A stretch of DNA of 64,000 nucleotides from Rothia aerolata (GTDB lineage: Bacteria; Actinomycetota; Actinomycetes; Actinomycetales; Micrococcaceae). Positions 4,279-55,572 of this stretch are shown here, in pieces. The stretch covers positions 1 through 64,000 of the forward strand of contig NZ_BMDC01000005.1 in assembly GCF_014635585.1 (NCBI RefSeq), written 5' to 3'. The notes under the pieces were generated by a model. The model did not search any database and was not told the origin of the DNA. It saw only the letters and a program-made list of their open reading frames with translations. Each line of letters opens with the position of its first letter. Positions within the stretch are counted from its first letter, which is position 1. The translations under genes and the position numbers were made by a program.

Positions 4279-4313
4279 TGTTTAAAGAGAAGTTTTCCCT
4301 GGTGAAACCAAGG

Positions 4314-5318
4314 TTAGAAAAGGGCAATCTTCTCGGGGGCGGGGAAAATCTGATCCAGCTGTTCCAAATCCTCTGCCGAGAACTTTACCGAGGCCGCCTG
4401 AGCATTAGCCTTGACCTGCTCAATGGTGGTGGCTCCTGCAATCACCGAGGCAACCGGCTCTTGGGCAGCCAACCAGCTAAAGGCCGCCTGCACCTCGGTA
4501 ATGCCGCGCTGGGCACAGAAATCAGAGAAAGCCTCCAGCTGATCCCAGTTAGCATTCTCCAGGTATTCCGTACGGGAATGGGAGAGGCGCGAGCCCTCCG
4601 GCGCCTGAGCATTTCGCCTGTACTTGCCGGTCAGCAAACCGTTTGCCAGCGGGAAGTAGGGCAGCACGCCCAGGCCAAACTTGCGGGCGGCGGGCATAAC
4701 TTCCAGCTCCGCCCGGCGGTCCAGCAGGTTGTAGTGGTTCTCAGCAGCAATAAAGCGCTGGGTTCCCAGCTGACGGGCCACATATTCCGCCTCGGCAATC
4801 TGATAACCGGCGTGGTTAGAGTGGCCGATGTAGCGCACCTTGCCCTGCTCAATCAGGGTATCCAGCGCGGCCAGGGTTTCTTCCACCGGGGTCACGCCGT
4901 CTGGGGTGTGGTAGAAGTAGAGATCAATGTGGTCGGTCCCCAGCCGTTTCAGCGAAGCCTCCACCGCACGCATAATGTAGGCGCGGGATCCGCGAGCGCC
5001 AAAGTCGCGGCCGTTAGCCCCCTTCATATCCATTCCGAACTTGGAAACCACCACGATGTCATCTCGCGCCGATGAGCCAAGGTTTTTGAGCGCCTTGCCG
5101 AACATGGTTTCTGAGGTTCCCGGTTCTTTACCGTAGATATCGGCTACGTCAAAGAGGTTAATACCAGCCTCGAAGGCCGCGGTGATGACGTCGTTGACCC
5201 CCTGCTGGGTTTCGGTCACGGTTTTTGCCCTGCCCAGGTTGTTACAGCCCAAGCCCACGGCAGAAACCATCAGACCGGAATCACCCATGCGACGGTACTC
5301 AATTTTTTCTTCACTCAC
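4314..5318 (-). CDS. Aldo/keto reductase
   Basis: The 334-residue cytoplasmic protein is a (beta/alpha)8-barrel NADPH-dependent oxidoreductase of the AKR superfamily. The catalytic tetrad is visible: Asp and Tyr in FDVADIYG, Lys in VVSKFGM and His in LYFYHTPD. The N-terminal strand reads MGDSGLMVSAVGLGCNNLGR. The C-terminal region AGATTIEQVKANAQA is typical of the NADP-binding end. It resembles the YajO/Tas branch, but the substrate is unknown. The start is a GTG behind AAGGAGAAGG. It stands alone between metE and the sugar porter, all on the same strand. Confidence 0.92.
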   Translation of the reverse strand: MSEEKIEYRRMGDSGLMVSAVGLGCNNLGRAKTVTETQQGVNDVITAAFEAGINLFDVADIYGKEPGTSETMFGKALKNLGSSARDDIVVVSKFGMDMKGANGRDFGARGSRAYIMRAVEASLKRLGTDHIDLYFYHTPDGVTPVEETLAALDTLIEQGKVRYIGHSNHAGYQIAEAEYVARQLGTQRFIAAENHYNLLDRRAELEVMPAARKFGLGVLPYFPLANGLLTGKYRRNAQAPEGSRLSHSRTEYLENANWDQLEAFSDFCAQRGITEVQAAFSWLAAQEPVASVIAGATTIEQVKANAQAASVKFSAEDLEQLDQIFPAPEKIALF

Positions 5319-37758: not shown

Positions 37759-38068
37759 TTTAGTTAAATTGGTTCCTAAATAACGTAAAGTTAGATTTTA
37801 ACTCCTCAGGGGGAGCCTACAGCAACAGCCATGGTTGGAGGAAGAGGGCACCAACCCACAAAGCTCCTCTACGGCCAGACATAGCTGGTCGCGGAAGTAC
37901 CTTGCTGGTCGCAAAACCCAGCTCGAGAGTATAGTAATTCCTACCATATCAAGTTGCCCTACTCGCGACACTTCTGAGAGAAGAACCACTCACTAGAACC
38001 ATTCAAAGGAATCAAAGATGATTCCCCTCTCTCAATGCCCGCAGTGTAGTACAAACCTATTAAACGAA

Positions 38069-38482
38069 ATGACCGCTTACGAATTAAAAGTGGAGGGTAT
38101 GAGTTTCGCCTACCCTCGCCGTCCCCATCTCATCAAAGATTTAAATACAACTTTTCGCCCGGGAGCTACTGTTCTCTTGGGTCCCAACGGTGCCGGAAAA
38201 ACTACACTCTTATCTCTACTGGCAACCATCCACAACCCCAATCAGGGGTCTATTAGGTTAGTCGATTCGGAAAATGAACACTCCGCCATATCCAGCAAGG
38301 AAATAGCTAAGTATAGGCAACACATCGCATGGCTACCGCAACGGTTTGAACCGGTCTCTGGCCTAACGGTTAAGGAGCATGTGGCCTATTCAGGTTGGCT
38401 TAAAGGCATAAGGAGGTATCTGGGGGTCAGAAGCAGCAGCTCTGTTACTTTTTATCTCTGCCCCGCTAGCTTCCCTGTGTAG
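38069..38482 (+). pseudogene. Truncated ABC transporter ATP-binding protein
   Basis: The frame encodes the first half of an ABC ATPase: MTAYELKVEGMSFAYPRRP, Walker A LGPNGAGKTTL and a Q-loop IAWLPQRFEPVSGL. Similarity ends at about residue 120 (HVAYSGWLKGI). The signature, Walker B and switch motifs are missing, so it cannot hydrolyse ATP as a full unit. An ATG 17 codons earlier (38018) is in frame but adds unrelated sequence. With the membrane remnant downstream, this is a decayed exporter locus of the bacteriocin or immunity type. Confidence 0.7.
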
Positions 38483-38561
38483 CGCATTAGAAGCAAGCTC
38501 GGAGAGAAGAAGGTTTGGAGTTATTAACCTAGCTACTCGTTCTGTTTTTAGGTGAGTACTC

Positions 38562-39164
38562 TTGCGAACATGGCCCAGTATTCTAGGAGCATGGGTAGTT
38601 CACACCTATGCGGTTCTCTTTCTTCTGGTAAAAGCTGGTCATAGCTACGGAAGTTATCTTCCAATAACATTAGCTGGATACTATGCAGCAATCGCTCTAC
38701 ATTCCCTGTGCGGGTATGCTCTTGGATATTACCTGCCCAAAATCTTAGCGATTTGTTGCGCGCTTGCCGGATCGTACGGTTGGGTAGCTTTCGCCTGGAC
38801 GATTGAGCCTGTGCAGGTTAGGTATATGGCAGGCCCTGCCCTTGCACTTTGCTGTTCCCTTAGCGGGCAACTAGATGTAGCGCCCCAGTGGACTTTACTC
38901 TTATTTTCCTTTTTCGTGACTATAGCTGCTTACTTTGGACTAGCAGGGCTACTGGCAGAGAGAGGCAACAAATTCCGACTAGCCTACCGGGGTGGTAGAG
39001 CAATCCTCTGGGTTGCCTTTTGTTGTTTATTCGCCCGGAACTCTTCGGGAGAGATTTATTGGTGGGCCTGGTGTATAGATCGCTACTACAGCAATCACTA
39101 TGCCTGGTTATTCAGCCTTCTATGCATAGTTTTATTATTTTTCAGATACTTATACCGCCGCTAA
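38562..39164 (+). CDS. Integral membrane protein, possible remnant of an ABC transporter operon
   Basis: The 200-residue frame has about five or six hydrophobic segments (VVHTYAVLFLLVKAG, LPITLAGYYAAIALHSLCGY, ILAICCALAGSYGWVAFAW, WTLLLFSFFVTIAAYFGLA, YAWLFSLLCIVLLFFRYLY). No family was recognised. Initiation would be at TTG, since no ATG with a ribosome binding site is seen and a stop codon lies three codons upstream, so the 5' end may be lost. Position after a truncated ABC ATPase suggests it was the membrane part of that system. Confidence 0.5.
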   Translation: MRTWPSILGAWVVHTYAVLFLLVKAGHSYGSYLPITLAGYYAAIALHSLCGYALGYYLPKILAICCALAGSYGWVAFAWTIEPVQVRYMAGPALALCCSLSGQLDVAPQWTLLLFSFFVTIAAYFGLAGLLAERGNKFRLAYRGGRAILWVAFCCLFARNSSGEIYWWAWCIDRYYSNHYAWLFSLLCIVLLFFRYLYRR

Positions 39165-45379: not shown

Positions 45380-45629
45380 TTATGCGCCAATGGGAAGAGT
45401 AATGTCCACCTGCCACTTATCCTCCACCCGGCCAGAAGAGAAAGTGCCGCCTAAGAGCTCACACCTCTCTCGAAGACCCGCCAGCCCATAGCCCATGCTC
45501 AGGTATTCTTTGCGATGCGGGGTCTCCCCCACTGCGTTTTGGCAGGTAATACGAAACAGTGTGCTCTCAACGAGGAGAGAGACATTCACCGGCTGGCCTG
45601 GCCCACCGTGCTTAATCACGTTGAGGTTT
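45380..45629 (-). pseudogene. C-terminal fragment of a NarL-type sensor histidine kinase
   Basis: The fragment carries the end of an HATPase domain: NVIKHGGPGQPVNVSLL (N-box) and MGYGLAGLRERCELLGGTF (G-box of the DesK/NarX type), then a normal C-terminus. All upstream sequence is lost at the boundary of the degenerate IS element at 45630. No partner response regulator remains nearby. Confidence 0.75.
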
Positions 45630-46503
45630 ATTCATAAGGTGCCCCAACCACCCAAAAAAAATCAGCCCCCGCCCCACAGAAAACACTCTCTTATACAAGC
45701 TCAAAAGTCGCCTGAACCCAGTAAGCAGAATACGCCAAGTCTTGATCTGAGCAATGCCCCGCTCAACCACCGACCTCAACCGATTCAGCACCCGATTATT
45801 CTTCTTCTGCTCACACCCCAGTCGTTGCCCAGGCTTACGCAGGGTCGGGGCAGCCAGCCCTAAGCCCGCATATCCTTTATCAGCCAGAGTCGAAGAGTCT
45901 AGCAAACGGTCAAGACCGTGAGCACGGAAGACATGAGCATCATGCCTAGCCCCAGGAAGCGGTCCAGTGATGGCCGAAAGCTTTCCATCAAGGGTGCAGA
46001 TGACCTGGTAGGTAAGGCCAGTACGCCTGTGCTTGCCTAAGAAATTTGCTTTCCTAGTGAACTCCAGCTCCAGGTGGGTACAAGCGTTCCGTCAATGACC
46101 AGGGGCCCGGGTGCTTCCAGGCTCTTTTTCAAGGGCTGCTCCAGGGACTTGAGGGTCTTTTCAAGGCCTTGCTCGTGGTGCTAATGATCCGGGAAATGGT
46201 GGGCTGAGAGACCCCAGCAAGGTGGGCTAGGGTTTCTTAGGTGATGTTTTGTCGGTAGCTGAGCAGGGTGACTTTCAGGGCTTGAGCCAGGGTAAGCCTG
46301 CGGGGTTTCTCAGCTGGTTTGACCCAGGTGAGGTGGTTGGTCAAGACTGTCAGTAGCGTGGCGAATCGCATGGGGTGAGCCCGGTTGTACGCTGGTGCGG
46401 CAACGGTCTTTCCAGTATGGCTTGAGGTTATTTGCAGTGATTTAATCCTCTTATTTTTGCCGCTGGTGAGGTTGGGATGTGCCCCCTTATGAATAATCCT
46501 CAT
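45612..46503 (-). pseudogene. Degenerate IS5-like (DDE_Tnp_4) transposase
   Basis: The N-terminal part (46503-46237) has a helix-turn-helix start (RRLTLAQALKVTLLSYRQNIT) cut by a TAA, after which the frame continues ETLAHLAGVSQPTISRIIS. The C-terminal part (45905-45612) keeps LADKGYAGLGLAAPTLRKPG, RVLNRLRSVVERGIAQIKTW and RRLLSLYKRVFS, including the catalytic Glu. Several stops and frame changes lie between. It cannot make active transposase. Confidence 0.8.
45630..46494 (-). mobile_element. Degenerate insertion sequence, about 865 bp
   Basis: Imperfect terminal inverted repeats delimit it: ATTCATAAGGTGCCCCAACC at 45630 on the left and the complement of ATTCATAAGGGGGCACATCC on the right, ending at 46494. 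It carries the broken transposase gene and cuts off the sensor kinase gene. A 2-bp TA may be the target duplication. Relatives in this window are scraps at 37440 and 51330. Confidence 0.75.
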
Positions 46504-46653
46504 TACATTTCGTTAAATAAACCTGTGATTCCAATATTCGGCACACCCTAGCATCCTCTACAAAAATATCTAATAAATTCATAATTATTCACCGATTAGC
46601 ATCTGTATACGCATACACACATCGATTAATATTCGCTGGATGAAACGGAAGGA

Positions 46654-46680
46654 ATCAAACACATCACGAGAAACAACCGT
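46654..46680 (-). repeat. Displaced 27-bp fragment of the RHS core (match to 47737-47763)
   Basis: The 27 bases are identical to part of the RHS gene and translate on the minus strand to TVVSRDVFD; the flanks continue as SFRF against PFRY in the intact gene. The fragment lies beyond the two small membrane genes. It is the footprint expected of an orphan RHS C-terminal module left after toxin-tip exchange. The rest of 46504-46752 is AT-rich and shows no gene. Confidence 0.7.
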
Positions 46681-46752
46681 CCTCCCAACATGCGTACTAC
46701 AAGAGGGAATGGAGCCCCCTATATAAGGACGGCCCACTCGCTCTAGAAAAAT

Positions 46753-46944
46753 TTACTTATTTTTCCCATAAAAATCTTTATTCAGCTTTATAATCAGCAG
46801 AAATGACAATAAAAAGACCACCCCGAAAACTACTACGCTAGATATTAAAATAGCCCTATTATCACCGAATAAAAATCCTATAACTATTGACGCGATAGCC
46901 ACCAACCATAAAGGTACCAGATACTTAATATTTTTAGAATTCAT
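46753..46944 (-). CDS. Small membrane protein downstream of RHS (candidate immunity protein)
   Basis: The 63-residue protein has two membrane helices (YLVPLWLVAIASIVIGFLF and AILISSVVVFGVVFLLSFLL) and a basic tail. Its ATG directly follows the TAG of the preceding small gene, so translation is coupled. The gene is AT-rich compared with the chromosome. Position as third gene of the SLH-RHS cluster makes an immunity or membrane-adaptor role plausible. No family was recognised. Confidence 0.6.
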   Translation of the reverse strand: MNSKNIKYLVPLWLVAIASIVIGFLFGDNRAILISSVVVFGVVFLLSFLLIIKLNKDFYGKNK

Positions 46945-47181
46945 CTACTTGCCACCAAATCCTAAGAAAGATTCAACCACGAAGAATACCCCGACTAACG
47001 AAAATAGAACTGCAGTTCCTATGTAGAATAGCTTATCGGAAAATGTCCCTGGAGGCACTCCCGGTAAAGTGTAGATGTTAGGATTACCAATTCTGTTTTT
47101 GTAATTTTTTATTCTATAAATAGTAACCGACAGACCAATCACTATAAATAATAGTCCTATTATAAGTACAGCTTGTCCCAT
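46945..47181 (-). CDS. Small membrane protein downstream of RHS (candidate immunity protein)
   Basis: The 78-residue protein has helices at its start (AVLIIGLLFIVIGLSVTIY) and end (KLFYIGTAVLFSLVGVFFVV), separated by a polar loop of about 30 residues (NPNIYTLPGVPPGTF). It begins 21 bp after the RHS stop, with AGGA upstream. It is likely cotranscribed with RHS. Small membrane immunities are common for membrane-acting polymorphic toxins, but no homologue was recognised. Confidence 0.62.
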   Translation of the reverse strand: MGQAVLIIGLLFIVIGLSVTIYRIKNYKNRIGNPNIYTLPGVPPGTFSDKLFYIGTAVLFSLVGVFFVVESFLGFGGK

Positions 47182-47202
47182 AATTCTTTATCATTCCTAA
47201 AA

Positions 47203-50200
47203 TTAACCCATGATTGGTATGCTAAGTCCAGCACCAATACTGCACCCGGCACCTATTCCCGCTACACCACCTATTGATGCTGAGCTACCACCTGCGTCAT
47301 CCATGCTTCCCTCAACGTATCCACCGAGCCCATAGGCAGCTGAGCACCCTACGCCCTGCTCAATTTTAGTGTCCTCTCTAGTACCATCAAAGGATTCATC
47401 GGTGATACCAAATTTAAGATTGGCATCAGCTTCGAAGCCAGCTCCCGCTCCAATATTTAAATCAGCATGATCCTCATTAAAAGTGGTTCCAAATGAAACA
47501 CAGAATCCAAAGCATCCTTCTAAAGATACTTCAAATGCATCTCGACCTACCGGGTCAAAATTATTCACTGGATCGGCACCGGCATATGCATAACGATTAG
47601 CATTCACCGGATCAAACGGAGCATCCAACGAATCCTGCTGCGTCCATACACCCTGATTAGGATCATAGAAACGAACACCAAAGAGATAACGCCCCGTACC
47701 ACGACGATCCACCATGCCAAAACGATAACGGAACGGATCAAACACATCACGAGAAACAACCGTTGTCTTCTCATCACGAGCGCCATAAGGATCAAACTCT
47801 TTATATGTCGAGGTTGTACCGTCATCTTTCACCAAACGAATATCAGAATCCACCGGATCAGAAATATACATATGCACACTCTTCTTATCCGTATCACGTA
47901 AGAACAACGGATTGCCCGTCACCGGATCGTGCTCTACAAAAGCAGTAGCACCCTCATGGCGGATCTTCTCCACCATCGGATTACCATAACGATCATTCAA
48001 ACCGTGGGTATATACAAAGGTTCCCTCTTTCGAGGACTGCTGAGCAATCAACTGCTTCTGGCTCATCCCAGCAAAAGTATTCGTCGTAGTATTCGACCCA
48101 TCTTTCAAAGCTGAGCCCACATTTTGATTTACCGTGTTATAGGTCAGATTAGTCTGATCAGAAGAAATCAGGTTGCCATCAGCGTCATATTTCCAGTTAT
48201 CACTGGTCACCTGATTCTGCGCATTGAAAGTATCACCATCAGTAATGACCTGGCCATCGCCCTTGGTTTGTACGGTCTTGATTTTATTACCACGCACATC
48301 ATAGGTGTACTCATACTTACCCTCCGGGCTACCGGGAGTATTCACCGTCAGCAAATGCCCCGCTTTATCATAAGTATAGGATGTGACGAACCCATTACCG
48401 GCGGTAGGGTTAGCGGTATACATCGCTTGAATCTTGTCCACAGCATTCGTTGCATCCATCGGGCATGAACGAGGATCAACACCAGGCACATAACAATACT
48501 TCTTCTCAGATAGGGTTACCGCGCCATCAGGATTCTGCGGTGTCACAGGTGCTTCTTTAGCTTTTTGGATTTTCTCGCCAATCAAATTACCGGAGCGATC
48601 ATAATCAGAATGCTTCCACACTTCCCAATTCTGCGCACCAGTATTAGCATCAGCCCCATACCAGGTATCCGTGCGACGTCCACGATCATCGGTGGCGAAC
48701 TTAATCGTCTTTTTCACACCTGATTCCGTGTAGTCCACGCTATCGAGTGTGCCACCTGCGGTGTAGTTGTAATTATTCGTCAAACCGTCCAAGGTTTTAG
48801 CAATCAGCTTGCCCTCACGGTCATACTTATAATCAATCTTAGTCGTCTGCGCAGCCTCACTGCCAACAGCAGCCTGCCAAACAGATTGAGAGATTACCTC
48901 ACCACGAGTGCTGTAAGTGAAAGTAGTTCTCTGAGTAGAAACGCCCTTAGAACGGCTAGCCACCGAAGTCACTCGTCCCAAAGCATCATACGTCGTATCC
49001 TGCACAGCATCAGCCGCAGTAGAGCCCTTAGGGTAAGAGGCAACCTTAGTGACCAAAGAAGTATTGCCTTCATAGGTGTATTTGATAACACCACCACGGC
49101 CCGTAGTCTTAGAAGTCAATCGCCCCAAGTCATCATAAGTATAGGACTCAGCGGTCAGTGAGCCACCCTTGGCTGGAATTACCTTACTCAGCAACCCATC
49201 AGCGGTGTACTCGTACTTGGTAGAGTTGCCCACGTTGCCAGGAGCTGTCGCGTAAGCTGGGGTACCATTGGGGTTGTACCCTACTTCAGCGGTTGCGGCC
49301 AGTGCGTTCGTTGATTTAGCTAAGGCACCAGATGCTGCATAGGTATAGGTACTTTTGTTCCCGCGAGCATCGGTAGATGATGAGGGTGAGTACTTTGTAT
49401 TATCAGTTTTATTCGCGTAATCAAAACTGCTCTTCTCACCGTTAGGACCGATAGCAGAAGTGAGTGAATTACTGTTATTAGCCCCGTAGCTGTAGGTCTC
49501 GGTACCAGCTGTTGCGCCTATACCAGAAGTATAAGAGCCAATATTAAGCTGCGGAGTGTAAGTTGCTGACTGAGTGCGGCCATCAGCATCCACAATAGAG
49601 GAAACCCTCTTATCACTAGGGTTGAGGTTATAGGTAATATGCGCACCCGTTGCTACCGCTACCCCAGCATTAGTGTTAGCACCAGCCACCAATGTCTTGG
49701 TGCCATCAGTGTAATCAAAACGAGTAATCGCCTCAGTGGTCGGTGCCTCGGCAGTACCGGGGATTGCGATCTTCACCACGCGGTTCTTGGAGTCATAACT
49801 GATTTTAGTGTAGCCGCCGCCTGCAGTGGAAACCTTAGAAATGCGACCGGCAGCATCATATTCAATAGTGGTTTTCAAACCACGTGGATTAGTTAAAGAA
49901 ACATACTTACCGTTAGCGCTATCCAGCTTCCAGGAAAGTCGTAACTTATCTTTAGTGGCACCAGAGCCAATCGTATCGGTGATAAGACCAACACTATCTG
50001 GGGTAGTTCCTGGAATCATGAAAGCATTGCGTGCCGCAGCTGGACCTTGCCAACCAGTTTGCTGCGATGGCAGGCCATCGGCATTGGTGAGACTGGTTTC
50101 GTTGCCGTTACGATCAACTACCTTCTGCGGGTAACCGTCCAAGCTGAAGTAGGTAGTTGATGCCGCGTCCCAGGTCAGTAGCTGGTAACCGTCGGTTACT

Positions 50201-50430
50201 TTCTTCAGGCTGTAGCGTTTACCAGCTGGCGCGGTGTACATACCTGGTGTGGTCGCATTCGGTGTGAAGACGACACGTTCACCGCTGGAATTTACGAAGA
50301 CGATATTAGCGTTTTCAGTGAAAAGGTTACCAGCGCCTAGTGCTGCGATACGCCAGTTATTACGAGTACCGGTGCCGGTGGTTAGCGGGGTGAGCGAGTT
50401 GTGGGTGAAGGCAATGCCATCTACATTCAT
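47203..50430 (-). CDS. RHS/YD-repeat secreted protein with variable C-terminal tail
   Basis: The 1075-residue protein consists of many YD repeats (such as YDAAGRISKVST, YDDLGRLTSKTTGRGG, YTYDVRGNKIKTV) forming the RHS cocoon. It ends in the RHS-associated core: RYLFGVRFYDPNQGVWTQQD, NRYAYAGADP and NFDPVG at about 957-962. After DPVG comes a 113-residue tail rich in Gly, Ala and Ser with five Cys (CFGFCVSFG, GVGCSAAYG, GAGCSIGAG). It has no recognised toxin motif; membrane insertion is conceivable. The signal peptide lies upstream in another frame (50496-50657), so a frameshift near 50515 separates export signal and body. The operon is SLH gene, this gene, then two small membrane genes. Confidence 0.9.
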   Translation of the reverse strand: MNVDGIAFTHNSLTPLTTGTGTRNNWRIAALGAGNLFTENANIVFVNSSGERVVFTPNATTPGMYTAPAGKRYSLKKVTDGYQLLTWDAASTTYFSLDGYPQKVVDRNGNETSLTNADGLPSQQTGWQGPAAARNAFMIPGTTPDSVGLITDTIGSGATKDKLRLSWKLDSANGKYVSLTNPRGLKTTIEYDAAGRISKVSTAGGGYTKISYDSKNRVVKIAIPGTAEAPTTEAITRFDYTDGTKTLVAGANTNAGVAVATGAHITYNLNPSDKRVSSIVDADGRTQSATYTPQLNIGSYTSGIGATAGTETYSYGANNSNSLTSAIGPNGEKSSFDYANKTDNTKYSPSSSTDARGNKSTYTYAASGALAKSTNALAATAEVGYNPNGTPAYATAPGNVGNSTKYEYTADGLLSKVIPAKGGSLTAESYTYDDLGRLTSKTTGRGGVIKYTYEGNTSLVTKVASYPKGSTAADAVQDTTYDALGRVTSVASRSKGVSTQRTTFTYSTRGEVISQSVWQAAVGSEAAQTTKIDYKYDREGKLIAKTLDGLTNNYNYTAGGTLDSVDYTESGVKKTIKFATDDRGRRTDTWYGADANTGAQNWEVWKHSDYDRSGNLIGEKIQKAKEAPVTPQNPDGAVTLSEKKYCYVPGVDPRSCPMDATNAVDKIQAMYTANPTAGNGFVTSYTYDKAGHLLTVNTPGSPEGKYEYTYDVRGNKIKTVQTKGDGQVITDGDTFNAQNQVTSDNWKYDADGNLISSDQTNLTYNTVNQNVGSALKDGSNTTTNTFAGMSQKQLIAQQSSKEGTFVYTHGLNDRYGNPMVEKIRHEGATAFVEHDPVTGNPLFLRDTDKKSVHMYISDPVDSDIRLVKDDGTTSTYKEFDPYGARDEKTTVVSRDVFDPFRYRFGMVDRRGTGRYLFGVRFYDPNQGVWTQQDSLDAPFDPVNANRYAYAGADPVNNFDPVGRDAFEVSLEGCFGFCVSFGTTFNEDHADLNIGAGAGFEADANLKFGITDESFDGTREDTKIEQGVGCSAAYGLGGYVEGSMDDAGGSSASIGGVAGIGAGCSIGAGLSIPIMG

Positions 50431-50495
50431 GCTGGTATTTAAGTTACCGGTGCCTACATCCAGGGAGCCGGTGATTCCTGCGCCTAGTGGGATGC

Positions 50496-50657
50496 TCAGG
50501 TTGGTTGCTGAGGTGCGCGGTGCCCGGTGAGGTTATTTTCTTTGGCTTGGGTCGAGACAGGTAGCTCTGTAGCCAAGGCCGGTGAGGTGGACAGTGGGCT
50601 ACAGATCAGCCCTAGGGTCAGGAGCGCGGTGACTGCTGTGGTTGTTTTGTGGTTCAT
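50496..50657 (-). pseudogene. Signal-peptide part of the RHS gene, out of frame
   Basis: ATG 50655-50657 opens MNHKTTTAVTALLTLGLI, a good Sec signal ending near SPALATE, then QAKENNLTG. It stops at 50496. In the RHS frame the same DNA reads TSATNLSIPLGAGITG and leads directly into the RHS body, so a one-base slip around the CACCGGGCACCGCG stretch (about 50510-50525) splits one gene. It starts 2 bases after the SLH-gene stop. Confidence 0.7.
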
Positions 50658-50659
50658 AT

Positions 50660-51052
50660 CTAAAATCCAAAAATCTGGTGGTATCGGTAGAGGAAGGCGC
50701 ACACGGCGTAGCGTTCAATGGGTTCAAGTGGCTTGTAAGTGCCATCGTTCCAGCCTGTAGCGATTTTCATATCGCGTAACCAACAGATTTCTTTGTAGAA
50801 CTCTGTGGTCGGTGAGGTATCAACAAAGTATTGGGCAAAAGTTTGTCTGTCGATGATAGCATCCGGGCGGAAGGTGCCATCAGGGTATCCCGGTAGCAGT
50901 GTTTTGTTGATGGCCCAGGTCATTTCTGTGTAGAACAGGGTTCCTGGTTTGATATCGCTATAGGTGGTTAACGCGGTGGATGGGGGCGCGGAAAGTGTGA
51001 GTCCTAGCGCCGCTAGCAGTGCTGCGGCGAGGGTAGCTCTGCGTGTGAGCAT
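50660..51052 (-). CDS. Secreted protein with two SLH-type repeats
   Basis: The 130-residue protein has a signal peptide (RRATLAAALLAALGLTLSAP) and two S-layer-homology repeats: YSDIKPGTLFYTEMTWAINK ... GYPDGTFRPDAIIDRQTFA and EFYKEICWLRDMKIATGWND ... GTYKPLEPIERYAVCAFLY. Such domains hold proteins at the cell wall. It is the first gene of the RHS cluster, and its stop codon is 2 bases from the RHS signal-peptide start, suggesting that it tethers or displays the RHS product. Confidence 0.85.
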   Translation of the reverse strand: MLTRRATLAAALLAALGLTLSAPPSTALTTYSDIKPGTLFYTEMTWAINKTLLPGYPDGTFRPDAIIDRQTFAQYFVDTSPTTEFYKEICWLRDMKIATGWNDGTYKPLEPIERYAVCAFLYRYHQIFGF

Positions 51053-51329
51053 AGTGGTTTCTTTCTTATTGAAGTGTTGTGGAATACAACGCTTCTTAAG
51101 ACTACCCTTATTTAGAATAATCTCAGGTTCAACACAGTAAAAACTCAGTCTTGTGAAGCAATAACTAAATTGTTACGCCCTTTAACTTCAATTTTACTAG
51201 GCGAAACTAGCCCACTCCTGTAATCGCTTTCTACGTCTTATCACCAAATAACCGGAGGATCCAGGAATGCAATGTGAATGGAAAATGCAACCTATGAACT
51301 TTACATTGGTATGTACTGAGGATTGTTCA
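51053..51329. other. AT-rich intergenic region upstream of the SLH gene
   Basis: This stretch is more AT-rich than the chromosome and probably holds the promoter of the SLH-RHS operon on the minus strand. No gene, tRNA or strong hairpin was seen. Confidence 0.5.
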
Positions 51330-51655
51330 AAAGTAGGCACACACCCCAACCCCACCAACTAGACAACGGCCCCACCAAGGGCGGCAACCTAGAGGATAAA
51401 TCTTCACAAATATTCTCAAGCTGCACCAGGAAGAACCGTTGCACCACCAGCGTACAACCCGTTACCTTTTAAGAGCGGTACACAGTCAACATCAAACCAG
51501 GTAACGGGGTAGCTAGCCCCAGGCCCACATAACCTTTATTAGCAAGCGTCGAAGAATGCAGAAGCTCATCTAGCCCATGAGCCCTGAAAGCATAGGCATC
51601 ATGCCTAGCCCCAGGTAACGGGCGCACCCCCACCAAACCTTATTTCTTCCCCTAA
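51330..51655 (-). mobile_element. Remnant of an IS related to the element at 45630
   Basis: The plus strand shares blocks with the left half of the IS at 45630, notably CATCATGCCTAGCCCCAGG, TAGCCCCAGGCCCACATAACC-like sequence and an end resembling CACCCCAACC. No reading frame survives. Together with the IS at 45630 it brackets the SLH-RHS cluster. Confidence 0.65.
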
Positions 51656-52544: not shown

Positions 52545-53912
52545 ATGTCTTCAGAGAACACCAACGCCACGCTCTCGCGGGGCACCTACAAGGAATCTCA
52601 GCGCATCTCCGAGATTCTGCGCAAGGAATCAGTGGGCGGCTTTGTACTGCTGGGTGCCACTGTTCTGGCTCTCATTCTGGCCAATAGCCCCGCAGCTGAC
52701 TTCTATTTCAACCTGCGTGATACCCACCTGGGTAAAGACATCGGAGACTTCCACCTGGATCTCTCCCTGGCCCACTGGGCAGCAGACGGCCTACTGGCGG
52801 TCTTCTTCTTCATGGCCGGCCTAGAGCTTAAAAAAGAATTCGTAGTGGGCGATCTGCGTAACCCCTCCAAGGCCCTGGTGCCCGTGGTTGCAGCAGCCGG
52901 CGGTGTAGCGGTTCCCGCCATCATCTACACCCTCATCAACCTCAACGGTAGCGCCGAAGCACTCGGCGGCTGGGCAATCCCCGCCGCAACCGACATTGCC
53001 TTCGCGGTCGCCGTCCTCGCGGTGATCGGCACCCACCTGCCCTCAGCGCTGCGCATCTTCCTGCTGACCCTGGCGGTGGTCGATGACCTCATCGCGATTG
53101 TTATCATCGCCCTCTTCTACACCACCGAACTGAAGATCTCCTACCTGCTGATCTCCATCGTCCCCATTCTGATTTACGCCTTTATCGCGCGTAAGGGCGA
53201 GACCACCTTCCACCTGAAGCCCCTGGCCTCCTGGCTGATTCTGCTACCCATCGGCTTCATCGTCTGGGCGCTCTTCCTGAACTCGGGTATTCACGCCACC
53301 ATCGCCGGTGTGGTGCTGGCTTTCATGATTCCTGTCAAGCACAACAAGCGCACCGAGCAGGCGGGTGCCCACCACGGCCTGGCCGAGCACATGGAACACA
53401 TGGTTCGCCCCTTCTCCGCGGGCTTCTGCGTGCCCGTGTTCGCCTTCTTCTCAGCAGGCGTGGCAATTGGCGGCTGGTCGGGCTTCACCGAAGCGGTCTC
53501 CCAGCCCATCGCCCTGGGCATTATCGTTGCGCTGGTGGGTGGCAAGATGATCGGTATCTTCGGCTCCACATGGCTGGTCACCCGCTTCCGCGGTGCCAAC
53601 CTTGACTCCGACATCAAGTGGATTGACGTGCTGGGCCTGTCTGCCCTGGCCGGTATCGGCTTCACTGTCTCCCTGCTGATTGCCGAACTCTCCTTCGGCG
53701 TGGGCTCCGACTACAACGACTACTCCAAGATTGCTATTCTCTCCGCCTCGGTACTGGCGGCGGTGCTCGGCTCCATTATTCTGGGCTCCCGCAACCGCTA
53801 CTACAAGAAGCTCGGCGAGAAGGAAAGCCTGGACGAAAACCAGGACGGCATTCCCGATGTCTACTCGGACGACGGCTCGGGAATCGGCGGTGCCTCGGTG
53901 CGGGCAAACTAG
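52545..53912 (+). CDS. nhaA: Na+/H+ antiporter NhaA, first tandem copy
   Basis: The 455-residue, 12-helix antiporter exports Na+ or Li+ for H+. It carries [20 protein letters not shown], the substrate aspartates in [34 protein letters not shown] and [16 protein letters not shown]. The C-terminus is extended by [20 protein letters not shown], a DxNxDGxxD calcium-type loop not usual for NhaA. GGGAG precedes the ATG. A paralogue follows 250 bp downstream, and 78 bp encoding the tail are identical in both. Confidence 0.95.
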
Positions 53913-54162: not shown

Positions 54163-55572
54163 ATGACTGAGACTAAGCCCGTGCCTAACGGCACCGACCC
54201 CCAGAAGAAGGCTAGCCAGAATAACACCGCCTTTTCCCGCGGTACCTATTCTGAGTACTCCCGCATTTCCGAGATTCTGCGCAAAGAATCTCTGGGTGGC
54301 TTCATACTGCTAGCTGCCACTGCGCTGGCTATTATTCTCTCGAACTCCCCACTGTCAGATACCTACTTTGGTGTGCGCGATACCGAGCTGGGCTTTGACA
54401 TTCCCGGCTTCCACCACCTGGTGATGGCGGTCAATCACTGGGCTGCTGACGGCCTGCTGGTGGTCTTCTTCTTCCTCACCGGTTTGGAGCTGAAGAAAGA
54501 GTTCGTTATCGGTGACCTGCGGGATCCGGGCCGCGCCATTGTACCCATTGCCGCAGCCTTTGGCGGTGTGGCAGCGCCCGCCATTATCTTCTTTGCTATC
54601 AATGCCGGTCACGAGACCGCCGTGGGCGGCTGGGCGATTCCCACCGCTACCGACATTGCCTTTGCGGTGGCCGTGATTACCGCGGTGGGCCGCTACCTGC
54701 CCTCTGCCCTGCGTACCTTCTTGCTGACCCTGGCGGTGGTTGATGATCTCATTGCAATCTTCATCATCGCGATCTTCTACACCAGCGACTTCAAGCCCCT
54801 CTACCTGGGTCTGGCAATTATTCCGATTGTTCTCTACGCGGTGATTGCCCACAAGGGTGAAAAGTTCTTCCATCTCAACAAGTGGGGAGCCTGGGTTATT
54901 CTTCTGCCCCTGGGCATTATCACCTGGGCGCTCTTCCTCGAATCCGGTATTCACGCCACAATCTCCGGCGTGGTACTGGGCTTCTGCGTGCCGGTGATCT
55001 ACAACAAGAAATCCAAGGCAGCCGGCGCAGATGCCGGCCTGGCCGAGGTACTGGAACATCGCCTGCGCCCGCTTTCCTCTTTGGTCTGCGTACCCCTCTT
55101 CGCCTTCTTCTCCGCCGGCGTGAACGTGGGCGGCTTCTCGGGCCTGGGCACCGCGCTCACCGACTCGGTGGCTATCGGCATTATCCTGGGCCTGGTAGTC
55201 GGCAAGACCGTGGGTATTACCCTCACCACCTGGTTGGTCACCCGCTTCCGCAAAGCCAATCTAGACCCCGATATTAAGTGGGTTGATGTTATCTGCATGG
55301 CCGTGACCGGCGGTATTGGTTTTACCGTCTCGCTACTGGTCGCCGAGCTCTCCTTCCCCGATGGCTCCCCCCACACCGAAGACGCCAAGATCGCTATTCT
55401 GGTGGGCTCCGTGACCGCGGCTGTCATCGGTGGTGTTTTGCTCTCTATCCGCAATAAGCACTACAAGAACATCTACCTCAAGGAAAACCTGGACGAAAAC
55501 CAGGACGGCATTCCCGATGTCTACTCGGACGACGGCTCGGGAATCGGCGGTGCCTCGGTGCGGGCTAAGTAA
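54163..55572 (+). CDS. nhaA: Na+/H+ antiporter NhaA, second tandem copy
   Basis: This 469-residue paralogue of the preceding antiporter has [54 protein letters not shown] and LESGIHATISGVVLGF. It shares the calcium-loop-like tail, encoded by DNA identical over 78 bp (55488-55565 with 53828-53905), while the rest has diverged clearly. The ribosome binding site is weak (AAGG 14 bases upstream). The two copies probably differ in pH or ion range. It has its own terminator and leader. Confidence 0.95.
   Translation: MTETKPVPNGTDPQKKASQNNTAFSRGTYSEYSRISEILRKESLGGFILLAATALAIILSNSPLSDTYFGVRDTELGFDIPGFHHLVMAVNHWAADGLLVVFFFLTGLELKKEFVIGDLRDPGRAIVPIAAAFGGVAAPAIIFFAINAGHETAVGGWAIPTATDIAFAVAVITAVGRYLPSALRTFLLTLAVVDDLIAIFIIAIFYTSDFKPLYLGLAIIPIVLYAVIAHKGEKFFHLNKWGAWVILLPLGIITWALFLESGIHATISGVVLGFCVPVIYNKKSKAAGADAGLAEVLEHRLRPLSSLVCVPLFAFFSAGVNVGGFSGLGTALTDSVAIGIILGLVVGKTVGITLTTWLVTRFRKANLDPDIKWVDVICMAVTGGIGFTVSLLVAELSFPDGSPHTEDAKIAILVGSVTAAVIGGVLLSIRNKHYKNIYLKENLDENQDGIPDVYSDDGSGIGGASVRAK

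Follow-up and report, generated by a model that had tools for sequence, protein, structure and literature searches.

A candidate Rhs-type polymorphic toxin locus with a broken start and small two-helix partner proteins in Rothia aerolata

Organization of the locus

The stretch of DNA considered here, further called the window, comprises 64,000 nucleotides (nt) of Rothia aerolata (positions 1 to 64,000 of contig NZ_BMDC01000005.1, assembly GCF_014635585.1). At positions 46504-51052 it contains a cluster of an S-layer homology (SLH) gene, an RHS gene and two small genes for two-helix (2TM) membrane proteins, named X and Y. An initial annotation, made from the sequence alone, had proposed a polymorphic toxin system displayed on the cell wall. 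The polymorphic-toxin reading is supported by the data presented below, with several corrections: the tail of the RHS protein has four cysteines and not five, this copy is probably not exported, and the SLH gene occurs in few loci.

All genes of the cluster lie on the minus strand. The SLH gene (50660..51052) encodes 130 amino acids (aa) with a signal-peptide-like start and the two expected SLH stretches (Pfam SLH, E 1.4e-13). Its stop codon is separated by 2 nt from the ATG of a signal-peptide-like open reading frame (ORF; 50496..50657), which is the N-terminal piece of the RHS gene, in a frame different from that of the RHS body. The body (47203..50430) has 1075 aa from the first in-frame ATG, within a stop-to-stop frame of 1109 codons, and was matched in Pfam and NCBIfam by RHS_repeat (E 9.5e-24) and Rhs_assc_core (45.6 bits, cut-off 32.5); YD/RHS repeats, the Rhs-associated core and a boundary of the DPxG type are all present. 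The core terminates in ...NNFDPVG, where a C-terminal tail of 113 aa starts (47206..47544). This tail is Gly-rich and beta-amphipathic with eight predicted strands, has Cys at positions 11, 15, 67 and 101, and is a candidate toxin tip; no Pfam or NCBIfam family matched it, in agreement with the earlier remark that it carries no known toxin motif. Protein X (46945..47181, 78 aa) follows the RHS stop after 21 nt and protein Y (46753..46944, 63 aa) follows X after 0 nt. Each has two hydrophobic segments, called here and below with a simple hydropathy window and no trained predictor, and both are candidate immunity proteins, Y being the second one. Their reading frames stay open despite the break in the RHS frame. 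PADLOC gave no match for the RHS protein, X or Y. The arrangement, the gene sizes, the tight spacing and the DPVG boundary are thus as first described.

The reported AT shift is also real, since the GC content is 0.472 over 46504-51052 and 0.390 over the tail and the small genes, against 0.587 in the remaining window. Related remnants of insertion sequences (IS) do bracket the cluster. Upstream lies a remnant with pieces in both orientations (51311..51640), and downstream a decayed IS of the DDE_Tnp_4 type (45612..46508, minus strand), recognized by Pfam (ORF 45612-45905, E 6.7e-9) and by its matches to the upstream remnant: 51505-51621 and 45846-45962 agree at 75.8% over 120 columns, and the flanks share two shorter inverted pieces as well. 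Between Y and this decayed IS, adjoining the latter, lies a decayed duplicate of the 3' end of the RHS core (46579..46680, minus strand), found by blastn against the RHS gene as two colinear pieces with 94.6% identity over 37 columns (E 1e-11) and 70.8% over 72 columns (E 4e-4; both are two-sequence E-values). It is a scar left by an older tail module that was displaced (an orphan).

Related loci and modular tails

A search with the RHS protein in 35 genomes of the genus matched 13. Eight of them, the window's own included, gave stretches with at least 68% identity and the others 25-35%. Among the close matches, five consist of core-end pieces, 34-100 residues long. The core ends of three relatives are 76-88% identical to that of the window, and two Kocuria tails are only 36% and 30% identical to the window tail; tails and small genes are not invariant.

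In the Kocuria locus L033, an SLH gene and a full RHS gene are followed by tail A, a 2TM ORF, a core-end copy, tail B, two 2TM ORFs and three more small ORFs; the core-end copy (439 bp, 99.8% identical) stops within the DPxG motif. Genome G028 lacks a full RHS gene and carries two tail-X-Y units in tandem, of which the second is decayed. In G031, a tail end, X and Y are followed by three further 2TM ORFs, the adjacency of the two contigs over which the tail is split being deduced. One of these extra ORFs is 43% identical over 68 aa to X of G004 and another resembles Y of G004 over 27 aa, a related pair that represents 2TM proteins as orphans. Orphan modules of tip and partner with a core piece are present in L033, in L039 and as the scar in the window. 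On contig 1 of G007, a related core carries an unrelated hydrophobic tail with its own 2TM ORF behind, and unrelated tails with their own 2TM ORFs occur on related cores at other loci. At the level of sequence, the tips are modular on a conserved core and some modules are orphans; the exchange of tails and partners for which a comparison had been proposed is seen across species.

A profile of the core end found 45 places in 35 of 395 genomes of the family. Four places were dropped, with a contig end (G031), tails cut by an IS (G007, G018) or a stop inside the core piece (G028), and among the 41 assessable tails 33 had a 2TM ORF directly behind, defined as an ORF of 40-110 aa with at least two hydrophobic segments and a start at -45 to +250 from the tail stop. 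By the same test such ORFs stood behind 9 of 240 non-RHS ORFs of at least 150 aa (loci L112-L131) and 285 of 8000 random positions. The genus also has a second Rhs type, distinct from this one (L150-L157), whose proteins have 1526-2490 aa, long tails with 0-1 Cys and no obvious signal peptide by eye; at eight chosen genus loci with other-type, longer RHS proteins no 2TM ORF was found behind (0/8), and behind two of the eight stand longer ORFs, of 272 and 289 aa, that contain several hydrophobic segments. A first pass with a strict motif was positive in 14/14 cases and missed many loci; it was replaced by the count of 41 tails. Simple P values overstate the significance of such counts because the loci are related by descent.

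Similarity of tails was compared with similarity of their 2TM partners in 33 modules (32 of the 33 partnered tails, G004 being dropped, and tail 1 of G028), which form 17 tail clusters. The Mantel r was 0.53 (p 0.0005) and the rank correlation 0.11 (p 0.008); r is carried by a handful of close pairs, and in several cases homologous tails stand beside partners with no similarity that could be detected. Judged from these alignments, the partner is linked to the tip and partly covaries with it. Protein X is 47% identical over 74 aa to the 2TM protein beside the homologous tail in G028. In the 395 family genomes, an X profile returned its own five source places, all beside tails, at E 1.7e-15 or better, and beyond them only five genomes at E 2.5e-4 to 0.003; the profile is insensitive, because the X genes of G004 and G031 were missed. 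With strong matches limited to tail-adjacent source places, the idea of X as a widely distributed protein, occurring without RHS, was rejected.

Several other loci deserve mention. In L123 (G390), L126 (G374), L113 (G231) and L112 (G215), two to three RHS core ends per genome, spaced about 1.4 to 12 kb, have different tails and 2TM partners. The RHS tails of L035 (about 5100-5200, G007 contig 4) and L040 (about 4644-4790, G018) share 20 residues and then pass into identical transposase-like sequence, presumably IS6-like, and these tails of two species look cut by one kind of insertion. In L038 (about 4300-4994, G032), a core end is followed by a Gly-rich stretch in another frame and, farther on, by a small hydrophobic ORF. 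Genome G006 contains a decayed relative without a core end.

Export and the SLH partner

In the Kocuria locus L033 and the same-genus locus L034 (G031), a single frame runs through the signal peptide, recognized by eye, and the RHS body, and longer SLH homologues (216 and 206 aa) lie upstream of RHS. In the window, the signal peptide is out of frame with the body, so that, barring an assembly error at this point, export of this RHS copy is improbable. The SLH gene was seen only in the window, G031 and Kocuria loci and, in G007, as a fused start; upstream of 11 other core-end loci, a rough SLH motif gave no hit. The SLH protein is a probable wall-anchoring partner of RHS, and display of the RHS protein on the wall may be supposed on this basis.

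In L041 (4888-5092, G007 contig 1) the start of the SLH gene abuts the RHS core end, as if after an internal deletion of most of the locus.

Cysteines and the beta class of tails

The number of Cys in the 41 tails is two in 27, four in 9, six in 2, three in 2 and none in 1. It is even and nonzero in 38/41, even in 37/38 after the frame-damaged tails (G004, G032, G372) are dropped, and even in 16/17 cluster representatives. Paired Cys suggest disulfides in the tails and hence action outside the cytoplasm. Mean hydropathy is about 0.5 or more in 32/41 tails.

The window tail is one of a rarer class with a beta pattern. Its homologues are in L033 (two), L039, L130, L124, L147 and L148, and the class comes from L033, G028, G283 and G189 together with G734 and G595 from another family of the same order. 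Among eight tails of this class, six have a start of the CxxxC type and two later Cys, the third Cys of G189 being shifted by about six residues from its place in the alignment. Both the third and the fourth Cys are absent from G028 and G734 (the G734 tail has two extra Cys upstream) and no tail is without just one, so the sequences suggest that C3 pairs with C4. Four further tails with four Cys lie outside the class. Beta amphipathicity reaches z 3.9 in the window tail and z 2.0-2.7 in four other tails of the class. At least two chained 2TM ORFs stand behind 7 of 11 beta-class tails, decayed ones included, vs 2 of 35 others, and the mean hydropathy of the class (-0.16 to 0.45) is below that of most other tails.

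Run class-wide against 236 genomes, the beta-class profile hit nothing besides the window itself. In the family, the tail search matched 21 genomes, of which 16 had E 0.0018-0.01 and lay in other Gly-rich frames; these were taken, without inspection, for chance matches. A tblastn search of plasmids with the tail at E<=1 gave nothing; the similarity of the RHS protein to seven phage records is distant (21-25% identity), and a relative on a viral contig at 37% has a different, longer tail. A phage or plasmid origin of the cluster was rejected. RHS loci on Microbacteriaceae plasmids (n=5) were looked at for annotation only.

Predicted fold of the tail

AlphaFold2 with a three-sequence alignment predicted an eight-stranded all-beta window tail at pLDDT 54.8, the other four models having 30-35. 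In Foldseek no match had E <0.005, and the virulence-associated proteins VapD and VapB of Rhodococcus equi were found with probability 1.00 and TM-scores of 0.54-0.60. By VIA-align, the window model, at its pLDDT of 54.8, superposed on four R. equi Vap entries with Z 12.4 (4csb), 12.3, 11.3 and 11.3 over 101-105 residues, the next unrelated row having 6.9. The model of L033 tail A gave the same four entries first (Z 5.7-6.2, next 4.0); a Z of 6 is not significant alone, and both models share one alignment. Other structural candidates were set aside: a simple meander outer-membrane barrel (de novo barrel, OprF, Z 6.4-6.9) is less favoured than the Vap match, fluorescent proteins ranking above Vap by Foldseek E-value had TM-scores of 0.21-0.27, and viral structures had about 0.1-0.4. 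By sequence, Pfam gave no match, the Vap family (PF05526) included, for six tails searched at E<=10 and two others at E<=1; a PF05526 search of seven genomes gave one match (E 3.5) on a contig other than that of the tail. A sequence profile search of the PDB returned only carbon monoxide dehydrogenase (E 0.12), taken as chance.

Papers are cited here and below by their PMC numbers. The strand order of VapD is 1-2-3-8-5-6-7-4 (PMC4118825). C67 and C101 fall on strands 5 and 8 of the model, which are neighbours in the Vap order and not in a simple meander; in the model, the joint loss of C3 and C4 fits the Vap order and is no proof of it. The tail model resembles VapB, VapD and VapG as a superposable Gly-rich barrel (PMC4118825, PMC10100859), and it differs in being an RHS tip with Cys pairs, without a Pfam Vap match and with low model confidence. 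VapA permeabilises liposomes (PMC4118825, PMC10100859), and the Vap mode of action is said to remain elusive (PMC8329714). It is conceivable, although we regard it as doubtful, that the beta-class tips are a new interbacterial toxin on the Vap barrel, suited to the extracellular side by two disulfides (C1-C2 across the first hairpin, C3-C4 linking strands 5 and 8), blocked by a two-helix pair and sharing an origin with Vap proteins as membrane-disturbing barrels.

Proposed mechanism and alternative explanations

In our opinion, the cluster is likely to be an Rhs-type polymorphic toxin locus, frame-broken at its start, whose extracellular, disulfide-bonded tip would act on membranes and be countered by a pair of 2TM immunity proteins. 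In relatives with an intact locus, the signal peptide would direct export of the RHS protein (Sec), the SLH partner would help to keep it at the wall, and its YD-repeat shell would enclose a short C-terminal tip starting from the DPxG boundary. Freed near the membrane of a neighbour, the tip would fold outside the cytoplasm into a disulfide-bonded, Gly-rich, eight-stranded beta domain and damage that membrane, while X and Y would sit in the membrane of the producer and jointly block the tip, by analogy with ExiC/ExiD. Tips and partners may travel as units through recombination in the shared core end, with older modules displaced downstream as orphans, a layout proposed because it is seen in relatives and in the window scar. 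In the window, the frame break would probably halt delivery, X and Y remaining open.

A number of observations weigh against this. The signal-peptide ORF (50657-50496) is not in frame with the RHS body, and both the toxicity of the tail and the immunity given by X and Y are suppositions. No 2TM partner was detected for 8/41 tails, the control ORFs include spurious ones, the counted loci are kin, and tail exchange was compared between species, with one genome per species. Detectable homology of the window's partners comes from G028 alone; compared in pairs, the 2TM proteins that accompany the window tail and the Kocuria tails are not similar (z -0.9 and 0.9). The beta pattern is unclear in G189 (z 1.3) and in the frame-damaged G004 (z -0.4), one tail outside the class reaches z 2.1, and the tail models are weak (pLDDT 54.8 for the window and 41.5 with L033 tail A as the first sequence).

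Part of this evidence could be read in other ways. Instead of perforating membranes, the tip might act outside the cell as a beta domain that binds some component of the envelope (lipid II, a wall polymer or a membrane protein), which X and Y would guard. The beta-class tails are indeed less hydrophobic than most, the eight-stranded barrel of VapB is called avidin-like, which is suggestive of binding (PMC4089522), and ionophores of contact-dependent inhibition (CDI) use membrane-protein receptors (PMC11630599). However, 32/41 tails reach a mean hydropathy of about 0.5 or more and mostly have one type of 2TM partner in common, which points to a membrane target shared among them, and we consider pure binding rather unlikely. 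That X and Y serve as accessory proteins for export, folding or processing of RHS could be argued from their position directly downstream, on the same strand and with near-coupled starts; it appears improbable, since the partner genes change with the tail while the core is conserved, X and Y are kept beside tails without a full RHS in G028, and G031 has extra ORFs without tails. The frame break, the flanking IS remnants and the orphan scar would suit a decaying surface or adhesion RHS protein next to small membrane genes placed there by chance, but the layout is intact in L033 and L034 and the 2TM linkage is far above the controls, which makes such an origin very improbable.

Comparison with known systems

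Rhs polymorphic toxins are best known for enzymatic tips acting in the cytoplasm, and Bacillus WapA is an Rhs/WapA polymorphic toxin with orphan modules. Such toxins with orphan modules are known in Gram-positive bacteria, for example WapA of Streptococcus suis (PMC12704120). The loci considered here share with the Rhs/WapA systems the YD-repeat shell, the signal peptide (in relatives), the variable C-terminal tip, the adjacent downstream partner and truncated downstream duplications, and differ in their tips, which appear to be of a membrane type and have small 2TM partners, in the separate SLH gene before RHS at three loci, and in the frame break of the window copy.

Above all, the nearest mechanistic parallel, by analogy, would be EsxX with ExiC/ExiD, before Tse5 and the CDI ionophores. 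EsxX is a membrane-depolarising toxin with a glycine zipper, delivered by the LXG/type VII secretion system (T7SS) route, and the membrane pair ExiC/ExiD gives immunity to extracellular EsxX and occurs as orphans in non-producers (PMC12744356). The likeness consists in two membrane proteins beside a toxin and also as orphans; it is drawn from the description, ExiC/ExiD being called polytopic, and a separate cytoplasmic antidote pair exists there (PMC12744356). Tse5 of Pseudomonas aeruginosa is an Rhs pore-forming toxin that depolarises its targets, an Rhs shell delivering a membrane-active C-terminal fragment (PMC10684867); it is likened by description, without sequence comparison, and depends on delivery by the type VI secretion system (T6SS) in a Gram-negative bacterium. 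The CDI ionophores are a tip family dissipating membrane potential, with highly polymorphic CdiI partners, but their predicted fold is a five-helix bundle, they have entry domains, and in E. coli CdiA bears them (PMC11630599). Zhang et al. described a pore-forming tip domain, W-TIP, then in proteobacteria only, and an immunity family with two transmembrane segments, Imm17 (PMC3482391).

In the open-licence literature, no paper combining Rhs, S-layer homology, toxin and immunity was found, and none combining Rothia and RHS repeat; titles and starts of abstracts among the matches listed included none on such Rhs tips in Micrococcaceae. Among the papers listed for Vap terms, VapA and polymorphic toxin occurred together only in a review on translation-inhibiting toxin-antitoxins (PMC7180214), and a related Vap query did not name R. 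equi among the matches listed. Micrococcaceae appear to carry an Rhs lineage largely given to short, Cys-paired, membrane-type tips with tiny two-helix partners. Such tips may be regarded as a genome-mined collection of bacteriocin-like domains with candidate antidotes, and the barrel reading, if true, would offer a testable origin for the Vap virulence proteins.

Other features of the window

Beside the cluster lie two adjacent, mutually similar genes (52545-53912 and 54163-55572), which we take to resemble Na+/H+ antiporters of the NhaA type. Another AT-rich patch of the window (38018-39164) contains a membrane-like ORF and a short ABC ATPase-like ORF, perhaps truncated, with the Walker A-like motif GPNGAGKTT.

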